DNA of 58,521 nucleotides from positions 1 to 58,521 of IMG/VR virus record IMGVR_UViG_3300049927_000079, one strand, 5' to 3'. Origin of the DNA: a virus. Every line of letters starts with the position of its first letter. Position 1 is the stretch's first letter. The notes below the pieces were generated by a model. The model saw nothing but the letters and a program-made list of their open reading frames with translations, ran no database searches and was not told the origin of the DNA. Position numbers and translations under genes: made by a program. This document shows, in pieces, positions 7,132-43,849 of the stretch.

Positions 7132-7636
7132 ATCCTGCCGGCAGGAGCGGCTTCTTTTCCTTGCGCCGAATCTCTACCAGTCCCGCAACCGTGTTGGGGT
7201 AGAAGTGTGCGTCCTTGAACTGGTCCAGAGTTATCCACTCATCCCGGACTTCCCACCGTCCACCAGCGTAATCCTGCGACCACGACTGCAAAAGGATTCT
7301 GGCGCCCGAGAGCAGGACTAGCTTCGCTTCCATGCTGCCCAGGATCTTGTTGCGCCTAGTGGAGTGGTTGGCGCGACTGGTGGTCTGGACGAATACGACT
7401 GGATCTACGGAGAGTCCGGATTCCCGGAAGAAGGCGCGGGCGTGGGTTCTCGGATGGATTGCTACGATGTCGAACACGCTCCACAGGTCCACGGAAATCT
7501 CAATCATCGGAACATGGCCGCAGGCGCGGCAAGCGTGCTTCTTGCGATCCGGGAATCGCTTCTTGCCTTCGACGGTGCCGACCAAGTAACCGCGAGCGGT
7601 CAGGTTCTCGCGAGTGCGCTGCTGTGGTGTGCTCAT
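7112..7636 (-). CDS. PD-(D/E)XK-like nuclease, Q-x-T variant
   Basis: A 174-residue protein from ATG 7636, overlapping the HNH gene's stop (ATGA). It holds a possible metal pair C-R-A-C-G-H (about 36-41), then D-L-W-S-V-F-D-I-V-A-I and V-V-F-V-Q-T-T-S, followed by R-R-N-K-I-L and R-I-L-L-Q-S-W and G-G-R-W-E-V-R. The D...(Q)-x-T arrangement matches a family of small phage nucleases related to Holliday-junction resolvases and VRR-type enzymes, with glutamine replacing the usual glutamate. Next to an HNH protein and a methyltransferase, it may be a restriction-like or recombination nuclease. Confidence 0.62.
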   Translation of the reverse strand: MSTPQQRTRENLTARGYLVGTVEGKKRFPDRKKHACRACGHVPMIEISVDLWSVFDIVAIHPRTHARAFFRESGLSVDPVVFVQTTSRANHSTRRNKILGSMEAKLVLLSGARILLQSWSQDYAGGRWEVRDEWITLDQFKDAHFYPNTVAGLVEIRRKEKKPLLPAGSTLPLV

Positions 7637-7899
7637 TGTTGACCGTGTTCCTCTCGGTGGCACTTTCCGCATAGACCCTCGCAGGAATGTACCGTATCAT
7701 CCCGCTTGCTCCCGCCCATGCCGCGGCCGTTCTTGTGGTGCGTGTGGAAAGAATTATCGTAATCGAGTGGCGAGGTTAGCAATGTTCGACGGTGACACTG
7801 AGTACAGAGACCGTAGGACTGCTCGTGCAACTGGCTGCGGAAACGAGTGTAGTCCTTACCGGACAGGATCGTACGGCCATCCTTGGTGGTCTTAATCAT
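7633..7899 (-). CDS. HNH endonuclease
   Basis: An 88-residue protein with the HNH layout: L-C-T-Q-C (zinc pair), D-Y-D-N-S-F-H-T-H-H-K-N-G-R-G, then D-D-T...L-C-G-K-C-H-R-E-E-H (second zinc pair). These fold as a beta-beta-alpha-metal nuclease that nicks or cuts DNA. Small stand-alone HNH proteins in phages often assist packaging, but here it is coupled on both sides (ATGA) to a DNA methyltransferase and a second nuclease, which favours a restriction- or modification-linked role. It is far from the terminase genes. Confidence 0.82.
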   Translation of the reverse strand: MIKTTKDGRTILSGKDYTRFRSQLHEQSYGLCTQCHRRTLLTSPLDYDNSFHTHHKNGRGMGGSKRDDTVHSCEGLCGKCHREEHGQQ

Positions 7900-8747
7900 G
7901 GTTTGAAACAGCGCGCAATATGTTGAGCTAACGGAAACGGAATCTTGGCGATCTGAGCTGAGGCAGCCTTGCGCGCGAGCGAATTGCTGCTCGTGTACCT
8001 ATTGAGCGATCCACGTCCTGCCGCTTTTGCCTCTTTGTAGTTTCCGAACCAACTTCCCGTACCTTTGGCTGCTTCTGCTCGTTGTTCCATCACTTGCATC
8101 CGCCAATGCGGGCTGGTTTTCCCGTTCTTGCGAAATTCATTCCAGTCGTTGCCTGAAAGCTTCACGAAGTCCTTTTGGCCTTCAACTGTCCTGAGCGCAG
8201 CTTGTACGGCTGGCTCATCTTCGTGACCGTGGAAGCTCGGGGATGGGATGCCATACTTTTCTGGATAGTGAAAGTTTCTACCGGGCCGTTTCAGACTAAA
8301 CGTAATAGGCATCAGTGCCGGAACATCTCCCCATAGGTAGTACGACCCGAAGTGCCAACGCGCCTGCCCCACCCACTTCTGTGCGCCTCGCACATTTTCA
8401 ACGACCAGCGGAATGTGCCGCCCTGCGGCCTGGATAGCTTCCTGCTGAATCCGGAAGCACGATTCGAAAAGGGTGTTATTTGGCGGTGGGAGGGCTTTGG
8501 CACGACTCCAGGGCATCGCCCTGTAGGAATAGCCTTGACAGGGCGGACTGGCCACAATCACGGTGGCGTCCTTAAATTGCGAACCGCGTAAGGTGGTCAC
8601 ATCCTGCAGGACGAGTTGTGCGGGATAGCCTCCCGTCCCATAATCATGCCGTTCAATGTCGAAGCCGATCACGCGGTAACCCTCCGCCAAAAATCCCTCC
8701 GTCCAGCCACCGAGGCCGCAGTACAGATCAATCGCTAGAGGCTTCAT
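7896..8747 (-). CDS. C5-cytosine DNA methyltransferase
   Basis: A 283-residue protein from ATG 8747, which overlaps the upstream stop (ATGA). Motif I is D-L-Y-C-G-L-G-G (7-14, SAM binding), motif IV P-P-C-Q-G-Y-S with catalytic C70, motif VI E-N-V-R-G (117-121), and a late F-P-L-A-Q-H-I-A-R motif X-like end. It would transfer a methyl group from SAM to cytosine C5, probably protecting phage DNA from host restriction. At 283 residues it is short, so the target-recognition domain is small. No cognate specificity subunit is visible. Confidence 0.88.
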   Translation of the reverse strand: MKPLAIDLYCGLGGWTEGFLAEGYRVIGFDIERHDYGTGGYPAQLVLQDVTTLRGSQFKDATVIVASPPCQGYSYRAMPWSRAKALPPPNNTLFESCFRIQQEAIQAAGRHIPLVVENVRGAQKWVGQARWHFGSYYLWGDVPALMPITFSLKRPGRNFHYPEKYGIPSPSFHGHEDEPAVQAALRTVEGQKDFVKLSGNDWNEFRKNGKTSPHWRMQVMEQRAEAAKGTGSWFGNYKEAKAAGRGSLNRYTSSNSLARKAASAQIAKIPFPLAQHIARCFKP

Positions 8748-9322
8748 ACGTCCTGCTCGCTGCACAGCCACTCTATGAAGGTCTCTAGGCTTGCACCCTC
8801 ATCCGTCAAGAGATACGCCTCGTAAACCGCCTCCACGCGCTCCCACTGCGACGTGGTGAACTTTAGCCGCTTCTCTACGATACCCTCAATATGCTGGTCC
8901 GGGTGGTTGTCTCGAATAAACTCCCGCAGTTCCTTCGGTTTCTTGATAGCAACTGACTGAAGTTTGGGATTTTGTCTAACGGAAGACGAAACGCTGGCCA
9001 AGACCTTAGCGGACCCTAGGGGCATTTTAGACAACTCTTCGTGGGATATGTCCGGCGCCAGTTCTTTGTACCGGCCAACCACGATGTAGATGTACGACCT
9101 CGACATCGGAGCAGCGTCTAGGAGCCATTCGTGCCAGGTCTTGAACCCAAGGCGCAGATAGTCCTTGTCCCGCTCGACGTCTATGCAGGCTTTGGCGATT
9201 TCCGCCCAGTCTGCGAACTGGCGATCGAAGGCACGGACGTAGGCGTCGCGGGCTTCCGCACGGTCCTGGGGTGTGAGGCTGGTTTCAGTTCTGATTTCGG
9301 GACAATTGATGGTCGTACCCAT
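8744..9322 (-). CDS. Helical DNA-associated protein, unknown family
   Basis: A 192-residue protein from ATG 9322 with GGAG about nine bases upstream. The first third has L-T-P-Q-D-R-A-E-A-R-D-A-Y and G-F-K-T-W-H-E-W-L-L-D-A-A, followed by M-S-R-S-Y-I-Y-I-V-V-G-R-Y-K-E-L, which resembles the helix-turn-helix part of DUF3102/ParB-like regulators. The second half is E-L-R-E-F-I-R-D-N-H and a helical tail. A transcription or replication regulatory role is likely. Its 5' end overlaps by about 140 bases the tail of the helix-turn-helix ORF at 9181-9501. Confidence 0.55.
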   Translation of the reverse strand: MGTTINCPEIRTETSLTPQDRAEARDAYVRAFDRQFADWAEIAKACIDVERDKDYLRLGFKTWHEWLLDAAPMSRSYIYIVVGRYKELAPDISHEELSKMPLGSAKVLASVSSSVRQNPKLQSVAIKKPKELREFIRDNHPDQHIEGIVEKRLKFTTSQWERVEAVYEAYLLTDEGASLETFIEWLCSEQDV

Positions 9323-15389: not shown

Positions 15390-15776
15390 ATGGCCCCCCG
15401 CAAGGACAGTTTCGCCCGAGCCTTAGCAGATGCCCAAAAGCGTCTGGAGCGGGCATTGGCGGAGCAGGATAGGGCCAAAAGAGTTTTGGCTGCGTTGCAA
15501 TCAGAAATTCCGACACTTCTCATAACTATCGCAGCGCTAAAGCATCACTTGGACCCGAGTGGACCGTTACCCGAAGAAATTGCACAGGTAGAACATTCTC
15601 CGGTTTCACCGTCCCCGCCTCCTAATCTGTCTCCCGAGGATCTGGCTAAGTGGTATCACGACCGCGACCTGTCCGGAGTTGGGAGCATTGCTCCAGCAAG
15701 ACCTGTGGCACCGACTGTAGCGGTAAGCGAGGATGACCTACTACCCGACGACTTCGCTGTAGGCAAAAAGGAATAG
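15390..15776 (+). CDS. Coiled-coil protein with proline-rich tail
   Basis: A 128-residue protein whose ATG directly follows the TAG of recT, in the same frame. Residues 8-55 are a charged coiled coil (F-A-R-A-L-A-D-A-Q-K-R-L-E-R-A-L-A-E-Q-D). The rest is Pro/Ser-rich with a short segment L-S-P-E-D-L-A-K-W-Y-H-D-R-D and an acidic end. No enzymatic motif is seen. It connects the recombination genes to the glycosyltransferase cassette; stop-start abutment (TAGATG) on both sides suggests re-initiation. Confidence 0.6.
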   Translation: MAPRKDSFARALADAQKRLERALAEQDRAKRVLAALQSEIPTLLITIAALKHHLDPSGPLPEEIAQVEHSPVSPSPPPNLSPEDLAKWYHDRDLSGVGSIAPARPVAPTVAVSEDDLLPDDFAVGKKE

Positions 15777-16967
15777 ATGAGCCGATTCCCGTTGCTCTTT
15801 CTTTCTGATGCTCCGACCGCAGGAACCGGCCTTTCTCGGATTACGCGGGATCTCGCCGTTAGAATAGCGACCCATCTTTCTGATGTGATCGAGGTAGGGA
15901 CATTGGGTTACGGTGGGCCGATGTCGCGCTCGCTCCCTTTCCCGCAATATCACATGGAAATGGAAAATTGGGTTGTGCGCAATCTCCCGGAAGTCTGGGC
16001 TGATTTTGCAGGGGAGAGGAAGGGCGCAATCTTTGTTATCTGGGATGGTTCGCGTGTTCTTTGGTTCGCACACCCAGAAAATTGTCAAGATGTCCAACTC
16101 CGTAAATTCCTGCAGGAGTCAACGTTCTCGCGATGGCTGTATGCGCCAATGGATGCAACAGGTCCACATGACCGCTTGACTGCCGTCCTCAAGCATACGG
16201 CAGAAGGGTTTGACCGAGTGCTCGCGTATTCATCGTGGGCAGAGGAAATCCTACGAAGAACATTGTGGAAGAAACCGCTATTGCAGACATTGACCAACCT
16301 GCCGCACGGTTTAGATAGTTCAGTGTTCTACCCGCGCGATAGAGCGGAAGCAAGAGCGAAATTTGGCGAACGAATCGGGATGAGGAACCAGACTGGTAAA
16401 TGGTTATATATCCCCGACAACTTCTTTGTCGTTGGGATTGTCGCCACTAATCAGGCGCGAAAAGATTACGGCCTCGGACTTCAGGTAGTCGCGCAACTTG
16501 CCAAGGAAAAACCGACCTTGGTCTGGATTCACACGGACGTCCTCGAAAGAAACTGGAGCCTACCTGCACTGCTGAATGACTTCGGGCTAAAGAACCACGC
16601 AATCACTACGGTTCCATTAACAGACGAGCAACTGGCGTGGTCGTATTCGGCGTGCGACGTGACTCTCGGCATAGGGATGTCAGAGGGCTTCGGTTTCCCG
16701 ATATTTGAGAGCTTGGCATGTGGCGTCCCGTGCATTCACGGCGATACTGGCGGAGCCCCAGAGCACATGCCTCCGCACATGCTTGTGCCTGCGGAGATGT
16801 ACCGCATAGAGGGTCCGTACAATATGTATCGCCCTGTCCACGTCGCAACTGAGTGGGTCAAGAAGATTCGCGAACTACCGCGCGGACCTGTGTCACTCCC
16901 CGAGCATCTGGACTGGAACGTGTTGTGGCCAAACTGGGAACGTTGGCTGCGGGCAGGTGTCGAATGA
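15777..16967 (+). CDS. GT-B glycosyltransferase (GT4-like)
   Basis: A 396-residue protein. The N-terminal half begins L-L-F-L-S-D-A-P-T-A-G-T-G-L-S-R (first Rossmann domain with acceptor-side glycine loop); the second has N-F-F-V-V-G-I-V-A-T-N-Q-A-R-K-D, and the diagnostic E-G-F-G-F-P-I-F-E-S-L-A-C-G-V-P (about 303-318), the E-x7-E nucleotide-sugar site of GT4 enzymes, then G-G-A-P-E. It should transfer a sugar from a nucleotide-sugar donor with retention. It is the first gene of a seven-gene overlapping cassette. Acceptor unknown: phage DNA, a virion protein or host glycan are options. Confidence 0.85.
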   Translation: MSRFPLLFLSDAPTAGTGLSRITRDLAVRIATHLSDVIEVGTLGYGGPMSRSLPFPQYHMEMENWVVRNLPEVWADFAGERKGAIFVIWDGSRVLWFAHPENCQDVQLRKFLQESTFSRWLYAPMDATGPHDRLTAVLKHTAEGFDRVLAYSSWAEEILRRTLWKKPLLQTLTNLPHGLDSSVFYPRDRAEARAKFGERIGMRNQTGKWLYIPDNFFVVGIVATNQARKDYGLGLQVVAQLAKEKPTLVWIHTDVLERNWSLPALLNDFGLKNHAITTVPLTDEQLAWSYSACDVTLGIGMSEGFGFPIFESLACGVPCIHGDTGGAPEHMPPHMLVPAEMYRIEGPYNMYRPVHVATEWVKKIRELPRGPVSLPEHLDWNVLWPNWERWLRAGVE

Positions 16968-17689
16968 AACTCGCCATCATGTGCCCGAGCACAGGAGGAC
17001 ACGAAGAGGCCGTGAGCAGTTGGCTTATGCGGGAGCATGAATTGTGGGAGGTATTCGTGGACTCCGCAATCGAAGGCGAGGGCGCCGGCTACTTGCAGAA
17101 AGTGCAGAACTTCTATCTACACACCGACGCAGACGTAATCGCGTATTTTCATTCCGACCTCTTCATTCGCGAATGGGATTGGGATGGTCGCGTGCTCCGC
17201 GAGTTTGAAGATCCCAACGTAGTTCTGGTCAGTTTCTTTGGTGCGAAAGAACTGGGGCGCTCAAACATCTACGTGGACCCTTACGACTACCGCCAACTGG
17301 CCCGCGGAGGTTGCTACTCGAACATGCGCGACTGGTTCAACCACGGCCAGTGCTGCACGGGCGCAATGGACGTAGCCATGATTGACAGCTTCTCGCTCAT
17401 CGTGCGGCGATCGTTTTTGGATGAACTTGGCGGATGGCCCATGCACTGCCCGCCGTCACATGGCAGCGATATGTGGCTTTGCATGATGGCCGCGCGGCAC
17501 AAGAAGAAAGTAAGGCTGGTCGGGATTGACTGCTCGCACTCTAGCGGAGGCGTGCGCGGAGATGGGAAGTTTGATTACCCCGCCTGGGCTGCAACGACCA
17601 AGTGGGGCTCCGATGCCGCGATGCACCAGGTGTGGCACCGGTACCTCTACGACGAGTTCAAGGATGTCTTGCCGATAAAGGTGGCGTGA
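16964..17689 (+). CDS. GT-A fold glycosyltransferase-like protein
   Basis: A 241-residue protein from ATG 16964 (ATGA overlap). It starts K-L-A-I-M-C-P-S-T-G-G-H; D-A-D-V-I-A-Y-F-H-S-D-L-F-I (about 54-67) contains the DxD-like metal site expected of GT-A enzymes; S-F-S-L-I-V-R-R-S-F-L-D-E-L-G-G-W and G-S-D-M-W-L-C-M-M-A-A match the acceptor-side region (the ED-type motif) of GT2-like proteins. It probably uses an NDP-sugar. It is the second transferase of the cassette and is co-translated with the GNAT gene (TGATG). Confidence 0.75.
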   Translation: MKLAIMCPSTGGHEEAVSSWLMREHELWEVFVDSAIEGEGAGYLQKVQNFYLHTDADVIAYFHSDLFIREWDWDGRVLREFEDPNVVLVSFFGAKELGRSNIYVDPYDYRQLARGGCYSNMRDWFNHGQCCTGAMDVAMIDSFSLIVRRSFLDELGGWPMHCPPSHGSDMWLCMMAARHKKKVRLVGIDCSHSSGGVRGDGKFDYPAWAATTKWGSDAAMHQVWHRYLYDEFKDVLPIKVA

Positions 17690-18198
17690 TGGCGTTCGTG
17701 CGATCAGGGCTTAACTTCCGCGAAGTGGAGGAGCGCGATCTGCACTGGTTGCGCGACTTGCGAAATGATCCACGTAACACTCCTGGCTGGCGCGATCCGC
17801 GCTCTGTCCAGACTATGCATAACCAGGATGCCTGGTACATGGCGCTCAACAATCTAAACCAGGCATTCATCGCGCTGGACGGGCAGGTGATTATAGGACT
17901 ACTCCGGTTTCGCCTCGACTACCCCATGTCAATCGCAGCCATGACGGGTACGGATGTACTCGAAGGCATGACAGGTCAAGGCTACGGTCGCCGCATCCTC
18001 CGCTCCGGCGCCGAGTACGTGATTCAGGAACTTGGGTTCCATCGGGTGACTGCGGAAGCGCTGGAATCGAACACGGCTGCCATCCACATCATCCAGGCAG
18101 CAGGATTTAAGTCGGAAGGCGTCTTGCGCGGGTATATGTGGCGCAATGGCAAGTGGAACAACTGGCACCTGTTCGGGATGCTGCGGGAGGATCTTTGA
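17689..18198 (+). CDS. GNAT N-acetyltransferase
   Basis: A 169-residue protein from ATG 17689; a GTG one codon earlier overlaps too. It begins with L-N-F-R-E-V-E-E-R-D-L-H-W-L-R-D-L-R-N-D-P, typical of RimJ/sugar-amine GNATs, and has G-Q-G-Y-G-R-R-I-L (acetyl-CoA pyrophosphate loop, motif A), then L-G-F-H-R-V-T-A-E-A-L-E-S-N-T-A-A-I-H-I-I-Q-A-A-G-F (motif B), and G-V-L-R-G-Y. Beside an aminotransferase and glycosyltransferases it most likely acetylates an amino-sugar nucleotide, as in Qui3NAc/Qui4NAc-type pathways. Confidence 0.84.
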   Translation: MAFVRSGLNFREVEERDLHWLRDLRNDPRNTPGWRDPRSVQTMHNQDAWYMALNNLNQAFIALDGQVIIGLLRFRLDYPMSIAAMTGTDVLEGMTGQGYGRRILRSGAEYVIQELGFHRVTAEALESNTAAIHIIQAAGFKSEGVLRGYMWRNGKWNNWHLFGMLREDL

Positions 18199-18842
18199 TT
18201 CTCGTCTTTGGCGGTCTCACGGGCGGTCTCGGTGAACCTCTCCACAAGGATCTCTGCGCCCTGTACTCGGACCAAGTGGTTATGGCAATCGGCCGTACAA
18301 ATTGCAACGTAGAGAGCGAGGACTCGATTGCCGCGTTCCTGAAGTTGCTGTCCGTAGCCAACCCGTTGCACATCATCAACGCGACCGGATTCTCTGTCTC
18401 TGCCGTGATTCACAAGACAGACGTTGCAGACATCCACAAGATATTCCGCGTGAACGTGACTGCAAACATTCTGCTCTTGAAGCACGCGCGGGAACTGTAC
18501 AAGGTTCATGGCGGGACGTTCACCATGCTTTCCTCTGTCACCGCAAGCGATGGCCCTGTAGGGACCGCGGCGTATGCAGCGTCCAAAGCGGCCTTGCACG
18601 GGCTGGTCAGAGTCGCAGCGAAAGAGTTTGCCATGTTCAAGACTCGCGTAAACTGCCTGGAGTTGGGATACTTCAACCGCGGCATGATTTCCGAAGTGCC
18701 AAGCACGCGCCTGCAGAATCTCATTGAAGGAATCCCGTTAGAGGATCTTGGGACCGTGAACGCACTGGCCCACGCCTGCAAGTTCCTGATTGATTGCGAG
18801 TACGTGACCGGCGCCATCGTGAAGGTCAACGGAGGACTATGA
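18195..18842 (+). CDS. Short-chain dehydrogenase/reductase
   Basis: A 215-residue protein from TTG 18195, overlapping the GNAT stop as TTGA. The Rossmann loop is F-G-G-L-T-G-G-L-G (5-13, a variant of G-x3-G-x-G). The catalytic triad region is L-S-S-V-T-A-S (Ser about 113) and Y-A-A-S-K (127-131); N-V-T-A-N-I-L-L-L and the end Y-V-T-G-A-I-V-K-V-N-G-G complete the family pattern. It would oxidise or reduce a keto/hydroxy group with NAD(P)H. In this cassette a nucleotide-keto-sugar is the likely substrate, preparing it for, or competing with, the aminotransferase. Confidence 0.82.
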   Translation: MILVFGGLTGGLGEPLHKDLCALYSDQVVMAIGRTNCNVESEDSIAAFLKLLSVANPLHIINATGFSVSAVIHKTDVADIHKIFRVNVTANILLLKHARELYKVHGGTFTMLSSVTASDGPVGTAAYAASKAALHGLVRVAAKEFAMFKTRVNCLELGYFNRGMISEVPSTRLQNLIEGIPLEDLGTVNALAHACKFLIDCEYVTGAIVKVNGGL

Positions 18843-19897
18843 TCCCGCTTTTCAAACATTACGTTGCACCCGAGGCGGCCGCAGCAGTCGCAGAAACGTT
18901 GGCATCGAGTTGTATTGGCCAAGGTCCGAAGGTAGACGAGTTCGAGAAAGCGCTGGAACCGTGGATTGGCCCGAACGTCACCGTCAACTCTGGCACAAGC
19001 GCTCTGTGGCTGGCTTACGACCTCGCCGGCATCAAGCCTGGGGACTACGTGATAGCGAGCCCCATGACGTGTCTGCTGGCCAATGTGCCACTGGCGCACA
19101 TGGGAGCGCGTATCCTGTGGGCCGACGTCTACCCGGATACGGGGTTGATTGACCCAGACTCAGTTGAGCGATTGCTAAAGAAGTATCCCGGCGTGGTCGC
19201 TATCTGCTGCGTGGATTACGCGGGAGTGGTCTGCGATTACCAATCGCTCAAAGAATTAGCCGAGACCTACGGATGCAGTTTGATTTCGGATGCTGCTCAC
19301 TCCTTCGGAGCAAACCTCGGCAATCTTGCACACATGACGGCGTACAGTTTCCAGGCGATAAAACATCTCACCACGGGAGATGGTGGATCACTCGCAACCA
19401 TCAGCAATAGCCCGCTTCGCCGGAAAGCCATCCTGAAACGCTGGTGCGGCCTCGACCGTACAAGCGGAGGATTCCGCTGCGACCAGATTGTGACCGCGAA
19501 GGGGTACAAGTTCCACCTTACCGACATCGCCGCCTCGATCGGACTGGCAAACTTGCCGCACGTCGCTAAGAACATTTCCATCCATCGCTGGCACGCACAG
19601 CAGTACAACGCAGCCGGCGTAGGGAACATGCCGATTGACTCATCCTGCTGGATGTACAACGTCATGGTGGATGACCGGGACGGCTTCGTGAAGCACATGG
19701 CCAAGCGCGGAGTGCAGGCTGCGCGCACGCATAACCGGAATGACCGGCATCCGATATTCAGCGCGATGGAACAACACCTGCCGGGAGTTACGCAGTTCAA
19801 CGATCGCCAGTGCTCGATACCCGTGGGCTGGTGGCTTTCAGATGCGGACGTTAAGCAAGTAATCGACGCCGTGCAGGAATGGAGTGTGATGCCATGA
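18839..19897 (+). CDS. DegT/DnrJ/EryC1 sugar aminotransferase
   Basis: A 352-residue PLP enzyme from ATG 18839 (ATGA overlap). Family signatures: N-S-G-T-S-A-L-W-L-A, the block L-I-S-D-A-A-H-S-F-G (Asp binding the PLP nitrogen), Y-S-F-Q-A-I-K-H-L-T-T-G-D-G-G with the PLP lysine at about K175, and G-Y-K-F-H-L-T-D-I-A-A-S-I-G-L. It should move an amino group from glutamate onto a nucleotide-linked keto-sugar. With the GNAT upstream it would yield an N-acetylated amino-deoxy sugar. No dehydratase for making the keto-sugar is in the window, so the precursor must come from the host. Confidence 0.87.
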   Translation: MIPLFKHYVAPEAAAAVAETLASSCIGQGPKVDEFEKALEPWIGPNVTVNSGTSALWLAYDLAGIKPGDYVIASPMTCLLANVPLAHMGARILWADVYPDTGLIDPDSVERLLKKYPGVVAICCVDYAGVVCDYQSLKELAETYGCSLISDAAHSFGANLGNLAHMTAYSFQAIKHLTTGDGGSLATISNSPLRRKAILKRWCGLDRTSGGFRCDQIVTAKGYKFHLTDIAASIGLANLPHVAKNISIHRWHAQQYNAAGVGNMPIDSSCWMYNVMVDDRDGFVKHMAKRGVQAARTHNRNDRHPIFSAMEQHLPGVTQFNDRQCSIPVGWWLSDADVKQVIDAVQEWSVMP

Positions 19898-20091
19898 TCG
19901 CTCAAGAAGATACCGAACTTGTCAACTGGATACTCGGTATTCAGCGCCTACATGCCGGCAGTTTCTTACAGGCGATAGCCGATGCTGCCGTGCGTGCGGA
20001 CGGACAGAACTACCTGTTGCTCCGCCCCGCACTGCTACAGTTCCGCTCTAAATATCCAGAGTACGATGCGGATAAACAGGGTGGCCGATGA
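19894..20091 (+). CDS. Small conserved phage protein in the sugar cassette
   Basis: A 65-residue protein from ATG 19894 (ATGA overlap). It reads as helices: T-E-L-V-N-W-I-L-G-I-Q-R-L-H-A-G-S-F-L-Q-A-I-A-D-A-A-V-R-A-D, then Y-L-L-L-R-P-A-L-L-Q-F-R-S-K-Y-P-E-Y. The pattern S-F-L-x-A-I-x-x-A-x-x-R-A-D-x-x-N-Y-x-x-L-R-P-x-L matches a short phage protein I have seen in many genomes without function. Its TGA overlaps the next ATG. It may be a fortuitous passenger or a small partner of the glycosyltransferases. Confidence 0.68.
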   Translation: MIAQEDTELVNWILGIQRLHAGSFLQAIADAAVRADGQNYLLLRPALLQFRSKYPEYDADKQGGR

Positions 20092-20804
20092 ACCCCTGCC
20101 TGATGCTCACCCGCAACAATCTTGCCCTAACCATGCGTGCCGCCGCATCGGTCATGCGCCAGTCGGTGCGGACACAGCTCTACATCGTGGACAACGGGAG
20201 CACGGACGGAACACAAGACTGCCTGTTCACCGCTGGCAGTGCATTGCTCACACGCTTTGAGACAAACATGGGCGTGTCGTTTGGCTGGAACGATGGACTC
20301 GGGAGAATCTTTGGAACCGACCCACTGTATTCCAAGCACGAGAAGATTCAGGCCGATCATTGCCTTGTAATCAACAACGACGTGGTTCTGCCCGTTTGGT
20401 TCTACGAGCAACTGCTGTCCTACAACAAGCCGTTCGTCTCCGGCGTCTCCGTGGACAAGATGGAACAGATTGCGGAGCCAGCACCGATGGGACCGCTGCA
20501 TCCGCATCCGGATTTCTCCGCGTTCCTAATCAAGCGCGAGGTATGGGATACGGTAGGGCAGTTCGATGAGAGCATGAAGCACTACGCCTCCGACAACGAC
20601 TTCCACGTTCGCGCGCAGCGTGCCGGCGCCGCGCTCTGGAAAGCGAATGTGCCCTTCTACCATGAGCGGTCGTCCACTATTAACCTTGCTACACCGGAGG
20701 AGAGGCTGGAACTGACTGAGCAGGCAAGCAAGGATCGGCAGAGGTTTTTTGAGAAGTGGGGCGTGATGCCGTGGGGTCCGGGGTATGATGCGTTATTCGG
20801 ATGA
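20088..20804 (+). CDS. GT2-family glycosyltransferase
   Basis: A 238-residue protein. Y-I-V-D-N-G-S-T-D-G-T (32-42) is the GT2 nucleotide-binding motif; L-V-I-N-N-D-V-V-L-P holds the metal-binding acidic residue; F-L-I-K-R-E-V-W-D-T-V-G-Q-F-D-E and Y-A-S-D-N-D-F-H-V-R-A are the acceptor-side and catalytic-base (ED-like) region. An inverting sugar transfer is expected. It is the last gene of the cassette, and its final 116 bases are overlapped antisense by the tail of the leftward nuclease-like gene. Confidence 0.86.
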   Translation: MNPCLMLTRNNLALTMRAAASVMRQSVRTQLYIVDNGSTDGTQDCLFTAGSALLTRFETNMGVSFGWNDGLGRIFGTDPLYSKHEKIQADHCLVINNDVVLPVWFYEQLLSYNKPFVSGVSVDKMEQIAEPAPMGPLHPHPDFSAFLIKREVWDTVGQFDESMKHYASDNDFHVRAQRAGAALWKANVPFYHERSSTINLATPEERLELTEQASKDRQRFFEKWGVMPWGPGYDALFG

Positions 20805-21720
20805 ACCCGTACTTCTCCTCTGGTTCAACCTCTGGTAGCGTGTAACAGCACTTCCGAAACGGACATGGGACTGGCCAATCACAACCGCTTAGATTCGCTT
20901 CTGGCGTGCGCCTCATCGCGTAGATTCTGCTTAACTTTTCTTGCGCCATTCTTTGAACCCGAAGAAGATGAGGAGTGGGTGGAATGGGGATGTCCTCGCG
21001 GAAGCAGACATCCTGCATCACGCCGTCCCTTAGCATCGCGTCCAGCCACTTCTTCCGGCTAATCTCGTCATGGTCCTCGCGGTAGATTTTCGTCCAACGG
21101 TCGCTAAACACATTAAATGGCAACTTGGAACCCATGCGTCTTTTGCGGAAGCGCAGGTCGCTGTTTGCGGGATGCAGGAAGCCACTCGCCCAAGGGCTCG
21201 ATGACCGCTTGCCGTCTCTCTGCTGCCCTATGACAATCACAATCATCTGCATCGGTAATTCGTACATAGCCTGCTCGCCCAAGGTGTACCACGACCGACA
21301 CTCGCTGGCATGGCGCTCATCCGACCAATGCGTGACCAGTACCACCCGGCGCAGCGTGTCGCCGCTGGCTGAGACATAGCACCCCGACGTCCAGTTTTCC
21401 ACAGGTTCAGGGGTAAGCCAGGGCGGATCTCCCGGCTTGCGGATGCAGGTTACTACCAGGTCTGCGATGCAGGCATGGTGGACCACGGCATCGTAGATTC
21501 CATTGTGGGTGTCGGTCTCCAGGCCGCGGTCCTGGGCCAACTGCAGCATTGCCGACCCCGCCAAGGTGCCCCAATCCTGCTCGCCTGCGGCTCCCAGGGC
21601 GATTCGGATGGCTTCTGCCATCATCCGGGTAGAGTTTAGCTTCTGGGGCTCCCAGGACCGCGAGAAGTAGCCTTTACGGTCGCAGGTCTCAAAATTGGAG
21701 AGTAATTCAGGGGTGTTCAT
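20689..21720 (-). CDS. Cas4/AddB-like protein with Fe-S-type cysteines
   Basis: A 343-residue protein, last of the long leftward operon, coupled to the gene upstream (ATGA). The start, L-L-S-N-F-E-T-C-D-R-K-G-Y-F-S, and the end, C-D-W-P-V-P-C-P-F-R-K-C-C-Y, place one cysteine near the N-terminus and a cluster near the C-terminus, the arrangement that binds a 4Fe-4S cluster in Cas4, AddB and related PD-(D/E)XK nucleases. I cannot identify a clear D...E-x-K catalytic set, so it may be a structural or inactive member. The last 35 residues are Pro/Ser/Thr-rich and antisense to the GT2 gene. Confidence 0.6.
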   Translation of the reverse strand: MNTPELLSNFETCDRKGYFSRSWEPQKLNSTRMMAEAIRIALGAAGEQDWGTLAGSAMLQLAQDRGLETDTHNGIYDAVVHHACIADLVVTCIRKPGDPPWLTPEPVENWTSGCYVSASGDTLRRVVLVTHWSDERHASECRSWYTLGEQAMYELPMQMIVIVIGQQRDGKRSSSPWASGFLHPANSDLRFRKRRMGSKLPFNVFSDRWTKIYREDHDEISRKKWLDAMLRDGVMQDVCFREDIPIPPTPHLLRVQRMAQEKLSRIYAMRRTPEANLSGCDWPVPCPFRKCCYTLPEVEPEEKYGFIRITHHTPDPTASRPTSQKTSADPCLPAQSVPASPPV

Positions 21721-33807: not shown

Positions 33808-36800
33808 TTACTGAACTCCCACGACAAGATGGCCACCTAAAACCAAAACTCCCCCGAGCGTAACTTTCACCGGACCCGGAGGAGGCGGAACCGGAATCGC
33901 TGTGCCCTGCAACGCAATCGTCTGCGGACTGTTTACCGTATTTGAGACCACCGAAATAGATCCGAGATGCACGTTGCTGATACAGCCTCCGGCGCTGTCA
34001 AACTGCCCACACAAGGTCGAAGGAGTAAAGGTAGCCTGCTCTGAGCAGAAGGCGCCAACTGCGAGCGTAGAGCCGCAGGCTCCGGTTACGGCAAAGTCCG
34101 CAGTCGTAGATGTCACCGCGAGCCCTGTGGCAGTCGCCGTGCCGTTGTTTGTGACAATGAATACCAAGGGATTGCTGGTTTTCCCTACCGTCTGGTTGCC
34201 GAAATCAATGCGCGAGATCCCGAGAACTATGTTTGGCGTCCCCGTGAAACCTGTGCAACTGAGGGTCGCGGTATCCGGACTGCTCGCAGCATTCGACGCG
34301 AATATCAGGGTCGCAGTCAGGAACCCTGTCGCCGTGGGTTGGCAGTTCACCGTAGCCGTGCAGGAATTGCCAGCCGTTACCGTCCCGCAGTTGTCGCTTT
34401 CAATGAACTGGGTTGGATTGGCGCCGCCAAAGGTTAGCGGAGTCGCGATCACCAGGTCCGCATTCCCGGTATTGGTCGCGGTGACAGTCAAGCCGGCCGA
34501 GGTTGTTCCCGTCTGAATGCTCGGCGGAGAGAAGGCCAGCGACGTTGGGGCCAGCGAGATCCGCGGCGTAGGCGCAGCCACTCCATTCACCGTCAATGTA
34601 AGGTTCTGCGGGCTGTCGGACGCATCATCCACCACATGAACGTTCGCCGTGCGTGCGCCAGTCCCGCCAGGTGTCACTGAGACATCCACGGGGCAGAAGG
34701 CACCAGGAGCGAGGGTCAACCCGCAGTGATTGACCAAGGTGTAATCCCCTGGGTTGGTTCCGGTCAGGGCGATGCTCGAAAGGTTCAGCGTTGCCGTGCC
34801 AGTGTTCTGGATCTGGCCACTGACCACTTTAGACAACACGCCTACCGTGACGTTCCCGAAATCAATCGAAGATGGAGTCAACGTAACCGCGGGCGCCGTC
34901 GCTACGCCTGTGCAACTCAGAGACACCGTGAGGGGAGAAATGCTTGTTCCGGTAAAGGGTTGCGTGAAGGTTCCAGACTGCGCGCCGGCAGCGATCGGAT
35001 TACAGCGAATGAAGTACTGACATTGCGCCTGGGGAGCAAGGTTTTGGTTGCAGGTTGGATTCCCGAAAATGAAGCTAAAATTTGGATCGTTGATGGTCGC
35101 TCCCCCGAGCGCCAAGGATGTATTCCCAGTGTTCTGCAGGGTCACCGCTTGGTTAGCGCTTACCTGCCCCACCGTGATGCTTCCGAAGGACAGGCTGGAC
35201 GGGGTAAGCGTGGCGCCGTCTTGTGTACCGAAGCCGGAGAGAGTTACGACATTTGGAGACGAAGCGGCGTTTGAAGCAATCGAAATATTTCCCGTAAGCG
35301 GACCAGCCGAGAGCGGCGCGAACTTGACGTTAATGGTGCAGGTAGATCCAACCGTGACCGTCCCGCAAGCGTTGGCCTGGGAGAAATTTCCGGTTGGAGT
35401 CACGCTCGAAACAACCAAGCTGGCCGTGCCGCAGTTGGTTACTACAACCGGCAGGCTGGCTGAAACCGAGTTTACCGGAGTGTTCGGGAAACTAAGGCTG
35501 GTCGCACTCAAGCAGACTGCCGGAGCGGTTGCTACTCCTGTCCCGGTAAGAGCCGCAGTCGATGGAGTCGTACTCGCGCTATTGACCAGCGTCAGAGTCG
35601 CCGCGCGCGCGCCAGTCGTGGTTGGCTTGAAGGCCGCGGGGATGATGCAATTCTGCCCACCCGGAAGCGGGTTGGCGCAACTGTTTGCCAAGAGAACGAA
35701 GTCTCCCGGATTGGCTCCGGCCAGTGAAAGCGTCCAGCGCATCGGGCCTGTGCCTGTATTCGACCAAGTGAAGTTGAACGGTGCGGTTTGTGTCCCAGAC
35801 ACTTGCGAGCCGAAATCATGGGATACAGGAGCAAGGCTGGCAATCGGAGCCGTGCCAGTGCCCGAGAGAGACGCCTGGTGCGGACTGCCCGTGGCGCTAT
35901 CTGCCATCGACAGCGCAGCAATCTTGAGGCCGATAGAAAGCGGGCTGAAGTACACCGGGATCGTGCAACTGGCGCCGGCAGCCAGCGTAGTGACTCCGGC
36001 CGGAGTGAAGGAGAAAGCCTTAACAAACTGCCAGCGCGTCCCATTCGTAGCCAAGCCACCAAACGCGGCATTGTTGGTGCCCCAGAGATTCATCATGGGG
36101 TTGGCAGGAGCAAACGGGATGTTCGTGCTGTGCGTCTGACTCAGCGTGCCATCAATCGAAAACGCTACCGAAGGCGCCGTCCACTTGAAGCCATAAACGT
36201 GGAACCCCAGTTCCGGGTTGGCCAGAGTAGCCGTGGTTGCAGTGTTCAGGGACGGAGTGCTCCAAGTTGTCCACTCGATCGTATTCGGTAGTCGCCCTTC
36301 AATCTCCGGCGAATCAATCTCCGTGTAGGGATTCGAGATGGAACTGTTCAGAATGAAGTCGGAAGAAACCTGTCCCGAGGGAACCGTGCCAGTCAAGTAA
36401 GGCGTGGTCGCCGTGGATGCAGAGCGCATCGACCAGCGATAACTTCCGAAACCGAAAGCTGTGGTCGATCGTACTTCCGCGCCCACCGAAATCGTAGGAG
36501 CCGCCCCGCTCTGGACTACCTTCAGTCCGAGCATCCCGTTCGACAAGTCCACATTCGAGGTCGAGAAGGTGCTTGTGTTCACGCCTCCGATATTTCCCGG
36601 AGCCGTCCCGGTATCTATCTGCCACTTGGAACTGAGGGCGCCCTGGTCGAAGTTGTCAGTGAATCCACTGGCTGCGGTCGCGCACTCGCCGGCAGTAAAG
36701 TCTCCGGGATTCGCTCCAATCAGCGACACTCCGGAAATTGTTACCGGCGAGGTTCCCGTGTTGGTCGCCGTCACGTTCGTAACTGGAGAGAAGTTACCTA

Positions 36801-39774
36801 CCAGAACATCGTTGAAGTTCACCGTGGACGGTGCGAGTTGAATGGTCCCAGGGACGGTCCCTGTACCTGTCAAGGTTGAGCCTACCGGCGCACCATTCGA
36901 GGCCACCGAAAGCGCAGAGGTCAAGAGGCCCGCTGCTGCTGGCTTGAAGAATGCATTGATGGTGCAGGACTGAGCCGGCGTTATCGTCCCGGTCGAAGGG
37001 CAGTTGTTCGACTGCGAATAGGCGGTTGGATTCGTGCCGCCAAGACTGATGGTGACTCCGGTCGAATTGATGCTTCCGCTCGCAGTGAGGGTGAAGGCTT
37101 GGCACAGGACCGATGTTCCTACCTGTTGATTCCCGCACGCCGCACTGGACGGACTAAGCGTCATGGCAGCCGCGCCGCCGACGCCGCTCATCGGAACTGT
37201 TTGTGGAGATCCGGGAGCGTTGTCAGTGAAACTCATATTGGCCGTGCGCGAGCCCGTAGCCGTTGGGCAGAACTTGGCGCTCTGCGTACAGGAAGATCCA
37301 GGTCCGAGTGAACCACCCCCCGCACCCGTCGCAGTGAAAGTGGAGAAGCCGTAGTCTGCTTGAGTATTCGCTCCCTGCAGGAACATACCCATTCCCGGAA
37401 AACCTGAAGCGAACGTTGTATCGGTAGCCGTGTTGACCTGGATGCCGTTTTTGAACACGGTGATAGTCGAGCCCGTGATTGACGCCTTGACTACATCTCC
37501 GTTGACTACCGCGCCTCCTACCGCCTTATTGGAGAGCATAGTGAAGCTGCCAAGCGGTCCATTCCAGCGAACAATTTGGGTGTAGGACTGACCCGGCCCA
37601 ACCGCAAAATTTATTTCGTAGCCCTTTATGCTGTGCGGAGCGATCGTAGTGCGAAGCCGTAGTTCCAGTTCCTCAAACGTCGATTGAACGTGTGAGACGG
37701 TGTGGACAGTTGCGGTAACCGTCTGGTCGTTATTCCATGATCCACCGACTACCGCGGTCGAGTCGTTCAGGGCGCCAGAACCAGTTTGCGTCCCGAAAGC
37801 AAGTCCGGGAGTTGTTCGGACGTTGGCCCAGTCGAGACCTGTCGTTCCACCATTGATCCAGTTCCCGCCTTCTGAAATCGGGTTCTCGGTAGCCGGGAAG
37901 TTGGTTGTGTAGGTGCGCGAAGCCAGCAGGCTAGGACAACTGCCAGTTCCGCCTACCGGAAAGTCCAAGGGGTTCGTGCCCGTGAAACCAAGGTTGGTAA
38001 TGGTCAAAGCCGTACTGCCCGTGTTGGTCAGCGTGGTTTGCTGGACTGCGCTGCAACTACCAGGTGCGATCGTACCAAAGTTGAGCACGGCAGGATTAAG
38101 ACTCACAGTGGAAGTACCGCCTGTCACCGTAAGAGCAACCTGGTGCGGCGAACCTACGGCATTGTCGGTCAAGGTCAGGAAAGCGCTACGCACTCCGCTT
38201 GCCGTGGGTTTGGCAGTTATGCTGAACGCGCAGCTAGCAGCAGCCGCAAGCGAGGCGGGACAGTTATTCGTCTGCGAGAAGTCTCCCAGGTTGGTTCCGG
38301 TGATTGCCTTGCCTGAAATAGTGAGTGCCGCATTCCCTGGATTAGACAGCGCGACTACGACCGGAGAGGACGACGTACTTACCGGGACCGTGCCGAAGTT
38401 GACCGATCCTGGACTGAAAGCCACGGCCGGAGCCAGTCCGCCTACGCATCCGCCCGCGAGACCTTCCATGCCAAGGGCCACGCACGGGTCTGCGATGTGG
38501 AAGTGTTGCAATACATTCAACCCGTTGACCAAACTAACGTTCGCCCACCATGCCGTGTTGTACTGTCTTGTACTGTGCGGAGCGGAAGGGTTAGGCCAAG
38601 TACCTACGCACGGTCCCCCAACACATGCTCCCCCTCCCGGCGCCCCTCCTCCTGTGCGGTCAGTGAAGGTGCAGGGCGCAATGCATTGTGCGTTCATAGC
38701 AGCCGAGAAATTGTTCGCTACGGTTTGGGCTCCTGGATAACCGTGCGTCTGCAGCCATGAGTAAGGCGTCTCGCTCTCAATGCTCGGCAGGGCTACTGCG
38801 TCTCCGTTCCCGGTTCCGCCAATGATGATGCCGTAGAGGGTCGCCGCACGGAGAATCGCGTACTGAATAATTCCAAGTTTAGCGATTCCAGGACAGGACG
38901 GTTGCACGGGATCGAAACAGTTGAGTTGCGGCGTAGTGTAATCGAGAAAGAACAAAGATCCGTTCGGAGGTCGGTTCACGTCAGTCGAGGCAGGGCTTGT
39001 TTTAGAAGTACAAAGTTGTCCCGGACTACCGCCGCCAGAACCGATAGGAAACACCGTGAAACCGGGGTAGCGCCCAGTAGGAACGCCGCTTCCGGAGCAC
39101 AGCGAGTAGCCGTACAGCGCATGATTGATTACTCCGGAAAGCAATTCCTGCAGGCGCATGATCGGGCCGAAGGGGGAAGTACCGCCCGTGATCGTTGAGC
39201 CAGTCTGGTAACCGGGTCCGGTATTCCACACATCCATGCCGCAATAACTGTTGCCGTTGTGCGTAAATGTTCCAGGTACAGCCGGGATCTGTCCTGCCCC
39301 GAAGGTATAGAACACCCAAAGTTTGCCAGTCACCTGATCGTAGAGGAGGAAATTGGAATCAGAATTTCCGCCTGTGAAGCCGTTGTATGGCAGGAGGGGC
39401 TGCATGTGGACGATTTGGCCGTTGAGCCCACTGGCATACGAGTTCCCGCTGCAACCTTGCACCGGCCACGTAGGATCACTGGCCTGTCCGAAGTAGAGCG
39501 GCCATGAACTGAAGTCGTCGCTCCCTGGCGTGTGGTACGGGCCTGTTTGAAAATTAGTAAAGTTGCCGGTGACGTTCTGGATCATTTGTGCCGACCCAGG
39601 CATCAGGTTGCCCAACGGCCCGCCCGCGCCGGCATTGGGCAGTTGATGGTTATAGAAGGCAGCCGGATAGGGTCGGTTACTGTTTGCCGGCTGGTTCAGG
39701 ATGTTGTAAGGCGGAGTTTGCGCGAGGGCGCCCGCAACCAGGAACAGGAGCGCGGAGATGAGTCTGCGAATCAA
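33808..39774 (-). CDS. Giant exported HYDIN-repeat protein with lectin-like and GH16-like domains
   Basis: A 1988-residue protein. The real start is TTG 39774, giving a Sec signal peptide I-R-R-L-I-S-A-L-L-F-L-V-A-G-A-L-A-Q; it has GAGG upstream and overlaps the previous stop (TTGA). Residues 20-445 are an unassigned exported domain. From about 446 come ten choice-of-anchor-D (HYDIN/ASH) Ig-like repeats with L-x-P-x-x-x-x-F-G-x-x-x-V-G openings. A LamG-like domain (about 618-813) and a GH16-like domain (about 1036-1258, catalytic-type E-I-D-S-P-E near 1149) are inserted in repeats 2 and 4. It could bind and cut beta-glucan or similar polymer at the cell surface. Confidence 0.75.
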   Translation of the reverse strand: MIRRLISALLFLVAGALAQTPPYNILNQPANSNRPYPAAFYNHQLPNAGAGGPLGNLMPGSAQMIQNVTGNFTNFQTGPYHTPGSDDFSSWPLYFGQASDPTWPVQGCSGNSYASGLNGQIVHMQPLLPYNGFTGGNSDSNFLLYDQVTGKLWVFYTFGAGQIPAVPGTFTHNGNSYCGMDVWNTGPGYQTGSTITGGTSPFGPIMRLQELLSGVINHALYGYSLCSGSGVPTGRYPGFTVFPIGSGGGSPGQLCTSKTSPASTDVNRPPNGSLFFLDYTTPQLNCFDPVQPSCPGIAKLGIIQYAILRAATLYGIIIGGTGNGDAVALPSIESETPYSWLQTHGYPGAQTVANNFSAAMNAQCIAPCTFTDRTGGGAPGGGACVGGPCVGTWPNPSAPHSTRQYNTAWWANVSLVNGLNVLQHFHIADPCVALGMEGLAGGCVGGLAPAVAFSPGSVNFGTVPVSTSSSPVVVALSNPGNAALTISGKAITGTNLGDFSQTNNCPASLAAAASCAFSITAKPTASGVRSAFLTLTDNAVGSPHQVALTVTGGTSTVSLNPAVLNFGTIAPGSCSAVQQTTLTNTGSTALTITNLGFTGTNPLDFPVGGTGSCPSLLASRTYTTNFPATENPISEGGNWINGGTTGLDWANVRTTPGLAFGTQTGSGALNDSTAVVGGSWNNDQTVTATVHTVSHVQSTFEELELRLRTTIAPHSIKGYEINFAVGPGQSYTQIVRWNGPLGSFTMLSNKAVGGAVVNGDVVKASITGSTITVFKNGIQVNTATDTTFASGFPGMGMFLQGANTQADYGFSTFTATGAGGGSLGPGSSCTQSAKFCPTATGSRTANMSFTDNAPGSPQTVPMSGVGGAAAMTLSPSSAACGNQQVGTSVLCQAFTLTASGSINSTGVTISLGGTNPTAYSQSNNCPSTGTITPAQSCTINAFFKPAAAGLLTSALSVASNGAPVGSTLTGTGTVPGTIQLAPSTVNFNDVLVGNFSPVTNVTATNTGTSPVTISGVSLIGANPGDFTAGECATAASGFTDNFDQGALSSKWQIDTGTAPGNIGGVNTSTFSTSNVDLSNGMLGLKVVQSGAAPTISVGAEVRSTTAFGFGSYRWSMRSASTATTPYLTGTVPSGQVSSDFILNSSISNPYTEIDSPEIEGRLPNTIEWTTWSTPSLNTATTATLANPELGFHVYGFKWTAPSVAFSIDGTLSQTHSTNIPFAPANPMMNLWGTNNAAFGGLATNGTRWQFVKAFSFTPAGVTTLAAGASCTIPVYFSPLSIGLKIAALSMADSATGSPHQASLSGTGTAPIASLAPVSHDFGSQVSGTQTAPFNFTWSNTGTGPMRWTLSLAGANPGDFVLLANSCANPLPGGQNCIIPAAFKPTTTGARAATLTLVNSASTTPSTAALTGTGVATAPAVCLSATSLSFPNTPVNSVSASLPVVVTNCGTASLVVSSVTPTGNFSQANACGTVTVGSTCTINVKFAPLSAGPLTGNISIASNAASSPNVVTLSGFGTQDGATLTPSSLSFGSITVGQVSANQAVTLQNTGNTSLALGGATINDPNFSFIFGNPTCNQNLAPQAQCQYFIRCNPIAAGAQSGTFTQPFTGTSISPLTVSLSCTGVATAPAVTLTPSSIDFGNVTVGVLSKVVSGQIQNTGTATLNLSSIALTGTNPGDYTLVNHCGLTLAPGAFCPVDVSVTPGGTGARTANVHVVDDASDSPQNLTLTVNGVAAPTPRISLAPTSLAFSPPSIQTGTTSAGLTVTATNTGNADLVIATPLTFGGANPTQFIESDNCGTVTAGNSCTATVNCQPTATGFLTATLIFASNAASSPDTATLSCTGFTGTPNIVLGISRIDFGNQTVGKTSNPLVFIVTNNGTATATGLAVTSTTADFAVTGACGSTLAVGAFCSEQATFTPSTLCGQFDSAGGCISNVHLGSISVVSNTVNSPQTIALQGTAIPVPPPPGPVKVTLGGVLVLGGHLVVGVQ

Positions 39775-40505
39775 TACAGATTCCTCGCATGACGCACTGC
39801 AGAAGAAACAAATGGCGCCACTCCGAAAGCAATCGTGGAGTATCCAGGGGCAGCGCTCCCGGTTTTGGTCGTACCTGCCGTATAGGTGCCGGGCGGTAAA
39901 TTGATCCGGTCTGCGATGTTGAGGCAAGCACCATGATTGTTGAATTCAATTGTGAACCCTGAAGCTGGCGTCTCCCCGCTGCACGTCACCACTCCGCTGT
40001 CACCGCTCATGCTGATAATGAGATCATTTGACCCGCTTGTGGTGACTTGGCTGGTAAATGGACTATTGCCCTGGTTCCCCGTATCTACACCAGTTAAGTC
40101 CTGGCCGTACTCACCTACCCAAAGGAATACTGGAGTGCTCCCGCCAGCAGATAAATTGAACGTGTCAGAACCAGAAAACGCTCCTGTGCTTGAGTAAAAC
40201 AGCACGCCTGCCCATGAAGCAAAAGAGATGGAATAAGACTGGCCAATGCCGACTCCGGTGTTACATCCACTCGTAATGCAGCCTGGGAGTGGTGCCTGTG
40301 AAAAAGAATTGCCGGGAGTATCGGTATAGCTCAGGGTATGCGAGTCGCCGCTCACGAAACCTACAGCAACTACTAAATGATGAGCGCTAACCGTGAGAGT
40401 GCAGGAAGTTGTTCCGCCGCTATTGGTATTTGTGCATTGCTGAACCGGAACCGCTGCAGACACGGGTAGCGCGAACAGGGCGAGAATGAATAAGAGTCGT
40501 CGCAT
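39771..40505 (-). CDS. Exported protein, paralogue of the 42232 product
   Basis: A 244-residue protein from ATG 40505 (TGATG overlap). It has a clear signal peptide (R-R-L-L-F-I-L-A-L-F-A-L-P-V-S-A-A) and a beta-rich Ser/Thr/Gly body with several cysteines: Q-C-T-N-T-N-S-G-G-T-T-S-C-T-L-T-V, V-V-A-V-G-F, S-G-S-D-T-F-N-L. The overall plan (C...C near the start, V-V-A-V/I, F-S-G, S-x-S-x-L-x-I) is shared with the gene at 42232, so the two look like diverged copies. Probably an extracellular adhesin-like protein. Confidence 0.62.
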   Translation of the reverse strand: MRRLLFILALFALPVSAAVPVQQCTNTNSGGTTSCTLTVSAHHLVVAVGFVSGDSHTLSYTDTPGNSFSQAPLPGCITSGCNTGVGIGQSYSISFASWAGVLFYSSTGAFSGSDTFNLSAGGSTPVFLWVGEYGQDLTGVDTGNQGNSPFTSQVTTSGSNDLIISMSGDSGVVTCSGETPASGFTIEFNNHGACLNIADRINLPPGTYTAGTTKTGSAAPGYSTIAFGVAPFVSSAVRHARNLY

Positions 40506-42238: not shown

Positions 42239-42933
42239 ACTCCGCTTCCTTTTCGCGTGGGCACTTGTGGAGGGACGATTGGCTTGAAAGTTGCCATTAC
42301 TGCCTCCGGCAATGGTGATCCCGATTGTGTCCAAGAGGGATTCACGGCACCGATCGGCGTTTTGACCAGATAAGCCATGTAACAAGTCGTAGTGGTTCCT
42401 GAGTTAAGGATTCCAACGGGAGTAGAGAATCCGGAATCTATAGTCGGAACACTCGCAGTTTGCGAGCCGAATGCACTTACAAAAAGCTCGTTATTGAAAG
42501 ACGGCGTGAGGCTCCCTGGTTGAATCGGAGAACTACCGCTTGACCCGCTTTGACCTTCAAAGGCTGATGACGGCAATGTTCCAGAGAAGGCCATTGCCGC
42601 CATACCTGCGAATGAACTAGAGGTTGCCGTGGTAAACGTGTGCGAGGCTCCAACGGTTCCGGGAATACTGTAAAACATGCGAGTGTGCGTATTGGTGTGA
42701 ACCTGTTCTGTGAGCGCAGTCCAGGAATTACTTTTTGAATCTGTTGGAACAGCCGGCGTTTTTTGAAATTCCGAAATGGCTACGACCAACAGAGTCGCAC
42801 CTGTCGTATCCATGACTGCCGTGGTACAGCCATTTGTCCCTCCGCATGTTTGGGGCGTTCCCACCAGGGCAGGTACACCCCAAGCAAAACTAGAGAGTGC
42901 GAGCACGAATGCGAAAATGAGCGCCTGTCTCAT
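42232..42933 (-). CDS. Exported protein, paralogue of the 39771 product
   Basis: A 233-residue protein from ATG 42933 (ATGA overlap). Signal peptide R-Q-A-L-I-F-A-F-V-L-A-L-S-S-F-A-W-G, then P-Q-T-C-G-G-T-N-G-C-T-T-A-V, L-L-V-V-A-I-S-E-F, G-A-S-H-T-F-T-T-A-T, N-N-E-L-F-V-S-A-F-G. It shares domain order and several motifs with the product of 39771. Function unknown; presumably periplasmic or cell-surface. Confidence 0.62.
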   Translation of the reverse strand: MRQALIFAFVLALSSFAWGVPALVGTPQTCGGTNGCTTAVMDTTGATLLVVAISEFQKTPAVPTDSKSNSWTALTEQVHTNTHTRMFYSIPGTVGASHTFTTATSSSFAGMAAMAFSGTLPSSAFEGQSGSSGSSPIQPGSLTPSFNNELFVSAFGSQTASVPTIDSGFSTPVGILNSGTTTTCYMAYLVKTPIGAVNPSWTQSGSPLPEAVMATFKPIVPPQVPTRKGSGVW

Positions 42934-43802: not shown

Positions 43803-43849
43803 TAGTTTAGAGCCTCCTACGATAAATTGCTGCAAGGTCATGTCATTGC

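Follow-up and report, generated by a model that had tools for sequence, protein, structure and literature searches.

Three conserved glycosyltransferases enclose an exchangeable, probable amino-sugar module in an uncultured soil-type phage, with a virion protein as the tentative target

The window described here, the whole 58,521-nucleotide (nt) stretch of IMG/VR virus record IMGVR_UViG_3300049927_000079, carries seven open reading frames (ORFs) in one rightward string at 15777-20804 on the plus strand. Three encode glycosyltransferases, here called GT4, GTA2 and GT2, and constitute a core found in many related phages, while the GNAT acetyltransferase, SDR oxidoreductase and DegT aminotransferase genes between them are one exchangeable and rare module. 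The cassette and its immediate neighbours are as follows.

15390-15776, plus strand: orf128, with its stop directly before the GT4 start; an iterated hidden Markov model (HMM) finds relatives in 21 further loci
15777-16967, plus strand: core GT4, a GT-B type glycosyltransferase of 396 amino acids (aa); Pfam PF00534, PHROG 2170
16964-17689, plus strand: core GT-A transferase (GTA2), 241 aa; sub-threshold to Glyco_tranf_2_5
17689-18198, plus strand: GNAT acetyltransferase; Pfam match, PseH match below cut-off
18195-18842, plus strand: short SDR oxidoreductase, 215 aa, TTG start; Pfam match, motifs intact
18839-19897, plus strand: DegT/DnrJ-type pyridoxal phosphate-dependent sugar aminotransferase; Pfam, NCBIfam and solved structures
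19894-20091, plus strand: 65-aa ORF, not conserved; nothing in Pfam
20088-20804, plus strand: core GT2 transferase, 238 aa; match to Glycos_transf_2 below cut-off
20689-21720, minus strand: orf343, convergent with GT2, the two genes sharing 116 nt at their 3' ends; no match in Pfam

The tightly packed string of seven genes in the original prediction was borne out, with ORFs in the places given and every junction overlapping by 1-4 nt (five 4-nt overlaps, ATGA or TTGA, and one 1-nt overlap, TGATG). In a 60-kb relative, L002, the genes recT, orf128, GT4, GTA2, GNAT, SDR, DegT, GT2, orf343 and orf638 are colinear with those of the window at 46-85% identity, and all six enzyme genes are syntenic at 65-85% amino acid identity. 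The ratio of non-synonymous to synonymous substitution rates (dN/dS) between the window and L002 was 0.12-0.22 for five of the cassette enzyme genes, indicating purifying selection, and GT4 and orf128 were saturated at synonymous sites. Since gene order is kept in L002 and dN/dS is this low, the cassette consists of real genes that are being maintained. Sites resembling promoters or terminators did not exceed their frequency in shuffled sequence, and an Rfam search returned nothing. The convergent orf343 is a frequent cassette boundary among the relatives, marking the distal end of the late operon; its tail-to-tail overlap with GT2 (20689-20804) has counterparts in L002, L064 and L071, where the ends also overlap.

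The 'small conserved protein' of the original prediction did not hold up, as neither L002 nor any of the other relatives retrieved has a match to the 65-aa ORF under the E-value limits applied, and L002 has a different 65-aa ORF in its place. The conserved small protein is instead orf128, relatives of which lie close upstream of GT4 in several loci and elsewhere near the cassette in others. It has a charged N-terminal half which looks helical by eye, a Pro/Ser-rich stretch (SPSPPPNLSPEDLAKWY) and an acidic C-terminal motif.

GT4, GTA2 and GT2 are all present, at the thresholds used, in 23 IMG/VR phage records besides the window. Two-row alignment queries for SDR and GTA2 had retrieved the L002 record alone, and wider alignments of the transferases were used afterwards; gene calls in the relatives were mechanical. 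DegT was found in two of the 33 core records tested, namely the window and L002. It is because of this rarity, and because the genes lying among the transferases vary from phage to phage, that we separate a core from a module, and the earlier view of all seven genes as a single set has to be given up. Among 84 inserted proteins scanned with Pfam (counts overlap), we found Methyltransf_24 (21), Methyltransf_11 (13), GT2 (13), GT_PLOD (7), B12-binding (7), HNH_3 (7), radical SAM (6), RMNT_CmcI (3), epimerase (2) and GT92 (1) domains; a hexapeptide acetyltransferase, rhamnosyl O-methyltransferase-like proteins and HNH or AP2 homing-type genes occur as inserts too. The inserts of L056, L064, L071, L072, L137, L151 and L079 include B12-binding radical SAM-type proteins of about 380-490 aa, assigned to the locus by eye except in L064. 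In a different, 94-kb phage (L003, positions 7498-9062) a GNAT gene is directly followed by a DegT gene whose product is 42% identical to the window DegT; that record gave no match to PseB or PF01370.

The three core enzymes differ in how readily they can be named. GT4 matches Pfam PF00534 (Glycos_transf_1; 2e-9) and PHROG 2170 (1e-24), has H177, K229, E303 and E311 invariant in a 35-sequence alignment, and has partial relatives, 24-33% identical, in a collection of 50,697 phage records. GTA2 reached 24.2 bits (3e-5) against Glyco_tranf_2_5, below the 27-bit cut-off, and H63-x-D65 and H192 are invariant in a 26-sequence alignment; tblastn detected no relative of it among the same 50,697 records. 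We regard GTA2 as an undescribed GT-A enzyme. The GT2 match to Glycos_transf_2 (0.005) is likewise below cut-off. None of the cassette enzymes has a clear transmembrane segment by hydropathy, the largest 19-residue mean being 1.39.

The aminotransferase, acetyltransferase and reductase had been read as amino-sugar chemistry, and this reading finds support, since DegT and GNAT match PseC and PseH, albeit far below cut-offs, and CalS13 is among the closest DegT structures. DegT (Pfam 7e-57) has its lysine motif, SFQAIKHLTTGDGG, intact as read from the sequence, and its best NCBIfam match is PseC (173.9 bits, not reaching the curated cut-off of 423.5). The SDR (Pfam 9e-27) likewise retains GGxTGGLG and YxxxK motifs. 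GNAT (Pfam 4e-11) gave 39.9 bits against PseH of NCBIfam, short of the curated 93.1, and its best PDB matches are diamine and spermidine acetyltransferases. The likeness to the pseudaminic acid pathway (PseB-PseC-PseH-PseI) ends there: PseB (TIGR03589) and the epimerase/dehydratase family PF01370 had no match in the window's record, and NeuB/PseI (PF03102) had none in the window or L002, in a search that detected 9 controls.

The closest solved structures to DegT, matched over full length, are aminodeoxypentose aminotransferases, the two best chains scoring 217 bits and CalS13 155 bits. The two best chains are titled only 'putative aminotransferase', and we take them to be AtmS13. AtmS13 has been postulated to install the amine on a keto-pentose (PMC10951976). 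A scan of genome contigs with DegT returned a single match of 27 residues, and a search of 398 genomes from the phylum of that organism (E limit 1e-40) returned two matches. The better of these, L157, is a bacterial relative that stands beside a PseB-like dehydratase and yet has an AtmS13-type structure score about equal to that of the window DegT. We therefore dropped the AtmS13-like score alone as a pointer to a pentose, and similarity to AtmS13 and CalS13 does not settle the DegT substrate.

Taken together, GNAT, SDR and DegT probably make an acetylated amino sugar, as judged from their families. A ketone on a nucleoside diphosphate-sugar would be transaminated by DegT and the resulting amine acetylated by GNAT, giving an N-acetylated amino-sugar donor; the order of these steps and the sugar itself are inferred. 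The SDR may make the ketone by oxidation or reduce a keto intermediate, and the ketone might alternatively be supplied by a host 4,6-dehydratase. Dehydrogenase-DegT pairs such as WbpB-WbpE provide a precedent for oxidation, and in comparison with WbpB-WbpE-WbpD the window has an SDR whose direction and substrate are not readable from its sequence. The sugar dehydratase that had been reported missing is indeed absent, as the PseB and PF01370 searches show. The proposal that a host keto-sugar is hijacked survives as one of two readings of that absence, the SDR being able to make the ketone instead.

The window phage is uncultured and of soil type. Judged by its head genes, its nearest isolated relatives are two podoviruses that infect Tunturiibacter (Acidobacteriota), namely Tunturi_1 and Tunturi_2 (PMC11924767). 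The terminase and major head protein are 27-29% identical to theirs and the portal also matches Tunturi_1, so that the host is likely acidobacterial, going by sequence similarity. A 30-nt direct repeat at both ends is consistent with the window being a complete phage genome. These nearest isolates seem to do without the core: GT4, GTA2, GT2, orf343 and orf638 were not detectable in Tunturi_1, and Tunturi_2, searched only as part of the phage collection, appears to lack the core.

The original prediction had taken the location behind recT to suggest a target other than the virion. This argument is weak, for in three relatives that form a sister group (L055, L059 and L135) the core lies between the large terminase (TerL) and the portal and major capsid protein (MCP) genes, on the same strand as the head genes, and the GT4 start overlaps the final bases of the ORF before it. 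In L062, a truncated contig, the order is GTA2-GT2-portal-MCP. Placement in the head operon is no proof of a virion target, yet it removes the argument that the cassette stands apart from virion genes. The interval that the core occupies in L055, L059 and L135, from terminase to portal position, contains in the window a gene for an AP2-domain protein (53639-54148, minus strand). ORF2 of Tunturi_1, from its terminase-portal interval, was considered as the equivalent of a gene of L059 and rejected, there being no significant similarity.

We propose that the phage has here a modular cassette for building a glycan, that it makes the acetamido-sugar donor itself and that the glycan most likely goes onto a virion protein (probability roughly 0.45). 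Three soluble transferases, GT4, GTA2 and GT2, would assemble a short glycan, the exchanged genes would set which sugar or decoration is used, and the acceptor would be a protein of the head or tail, synthesised in the cytoplasm, by analogy with the mycobacteriophages that carry glycans. We infer a virion acceptor because of the head-operon location in the sister group and because of the mycobacteriophage precedent. In Corndog (Cluster O), O-methyltransferase and glycosyltransferase genes lie between the portal and the capsid protease, and capsid modification has been proposed (PMC4351075); glycans have been reported on the capsid and tail tube of mycobacteriophages (Freeman et al. 2023 as cited in PMC12619734). 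Corndog resembles L055, L059 and L135 in having glycosyltransferases with a methyltransferase gene in the head operon. It differs in its gene set, and the window has an amino-sugar donor module and a cassette outside the late operon. Flavobacterium phage immuto (MW353176) offers another parallel, with a run of glycosyltransferases, two DegT-type transaminases (DegT 34.9% identical to that of the window), a methyltransferase, an epimerase and a 'pilin glycosylation protein'; unlike the window it carries that epimerase and, at the limits used, has no relative of GTA2 or GT4.

Several points weigh against this proposal. In the window the cassette follows recT and early-type genes and does not share the strand of the late genes (the terminase, portal-position and head genes are on the minus strand); most relatives likewise have the two on opposite strands. 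The three head-operon records may go back to a single insertion. We found no acceptor site, there is no direct evidence of a glycan, and the family names of GTA2 and GT2 are sub-threshold in Pfam. Cytoplasmic transferases could equally modify lipid-linked host glycans before export.

That last point leads to the alternative in which the acetamido sugar is added, at the cytoplasmic face, to lipid-linked lipopolysaccharide or exopolysaccharide units, so that the host surface is altered during infection for superinfection exclusion or receptor masking. The position behind recT opposite the late genes suits such a role, pelagiphage glycosyltransferases have been interpreted as host-surface modifiers (PMC7029224), and a DegT relative on a sphingomonad plasmid stands beside GNAT, sugar transferase, polysaccharide biosynthesis and flippase genes. 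It is nevertheless countered by the head-operon core of the sister group, and in its classical form, prophage O-antigen conversion by GtrABC, it is disfavoured: GtrA (PF04138) had no match where 7 controls were detected, and the cassette enzymes, with a hydropathy peak no higher than 1.39, have no clear membrane segment. We consider host-surface modification a possible but doubtful explanation. Less credible still is that the acceptors are late-operon phage proteins of exported appearance, which would receive the sugar prior to export or assembly. Six late ORFs of the window do have signal-like N-termini, as do ORFs in two relatives and proteins annotated as spike or structural in Tunturi_1, but Tunturi_1 has such proteins and no match to the core.

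Glycosylation of phage DNA, the other target first suggested, now appears highly improbable. A C5-cytosine methyltransferase-like gene (7896-8747) and the DNA-hypermodifying phage glycosyltransferases reported elsewhere (Pyle et al. 2024 as cited in PMC12619734) speak for it. Against it, the thymidylate-synthase-type hydroxymethylase (PF00303), expected by analogy to T4- and TET-type systems, had no match in any of the 33 core records while 9 controls were detected; TET/JBP (PF12851) also had no match, in a search that detected no control. We give even less credence to the idea that the substrate of GNAT, SDR and DegT is a small molecule other than a sugar, and that these genes are mere neighbours of the transferases. 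Many non-sugar enzymes belong to the GNAT and SDR families, and the GNAT structure matches noted above are of this kind. However, the best solved relatives of DegT are sugar aminotransferases, and the trio is joined by translational overlaps within a transferase-bounded string whose order is kept in L002.

Returning to the virion glycan, it is conceivable, though we would not count on it, that the locus encodes a phage glycan system of a kind not described before, in which three transferases work with interchangeable modules for decoration and give a variable glycan coat to acidobacterial podovirus-like particles, with a dehydratase-free donor route in which the SDR oxidises, DegT transaminates and GNAT acetylates a host nucleotide sugar. 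The targets of phage glycosyltransferases are often guessed from location, and here the core can be traced across about two dozen phages with changing accessories. As some genomes have it within the head operon and others elsewhere, the target question can be addressed by comparing the virions of these phages. Should the virion prove to be the acceptor, the glycan coat of soil phages would be modular and diversifying, comparable to the one described in mycobacteriophages.

A few other genes of the window deserve mention. The C5-cytosine methyltransferase-like protein (minus strand) matches only the N-terminal part of its family. A PAPS-reductase-like protein (56280-57026, minus strand; PHROG 424, 1.6e-27; no match in Pfam) adjoins the large terminase gene. 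Six consecutive late ORFs at 33808-45484 on the minus strand (1988, 244, 577, 233, 290 and 544 aa) have signal-peptide-like N-termini by a crude hydropathy rule, which is unusual for virion genes of tailed phages. Similar starts were seen on ORFs in L159 and L160 and, by eye, on gp12, gp13, gp14 (tail spike) and gp17 of Tunturi_1. The 1988-aa ORF (33808-39774, minus strand) combines repeated ASH/HYDIN-like Ig domains with a GH16 glycosyl hydrolase domain.

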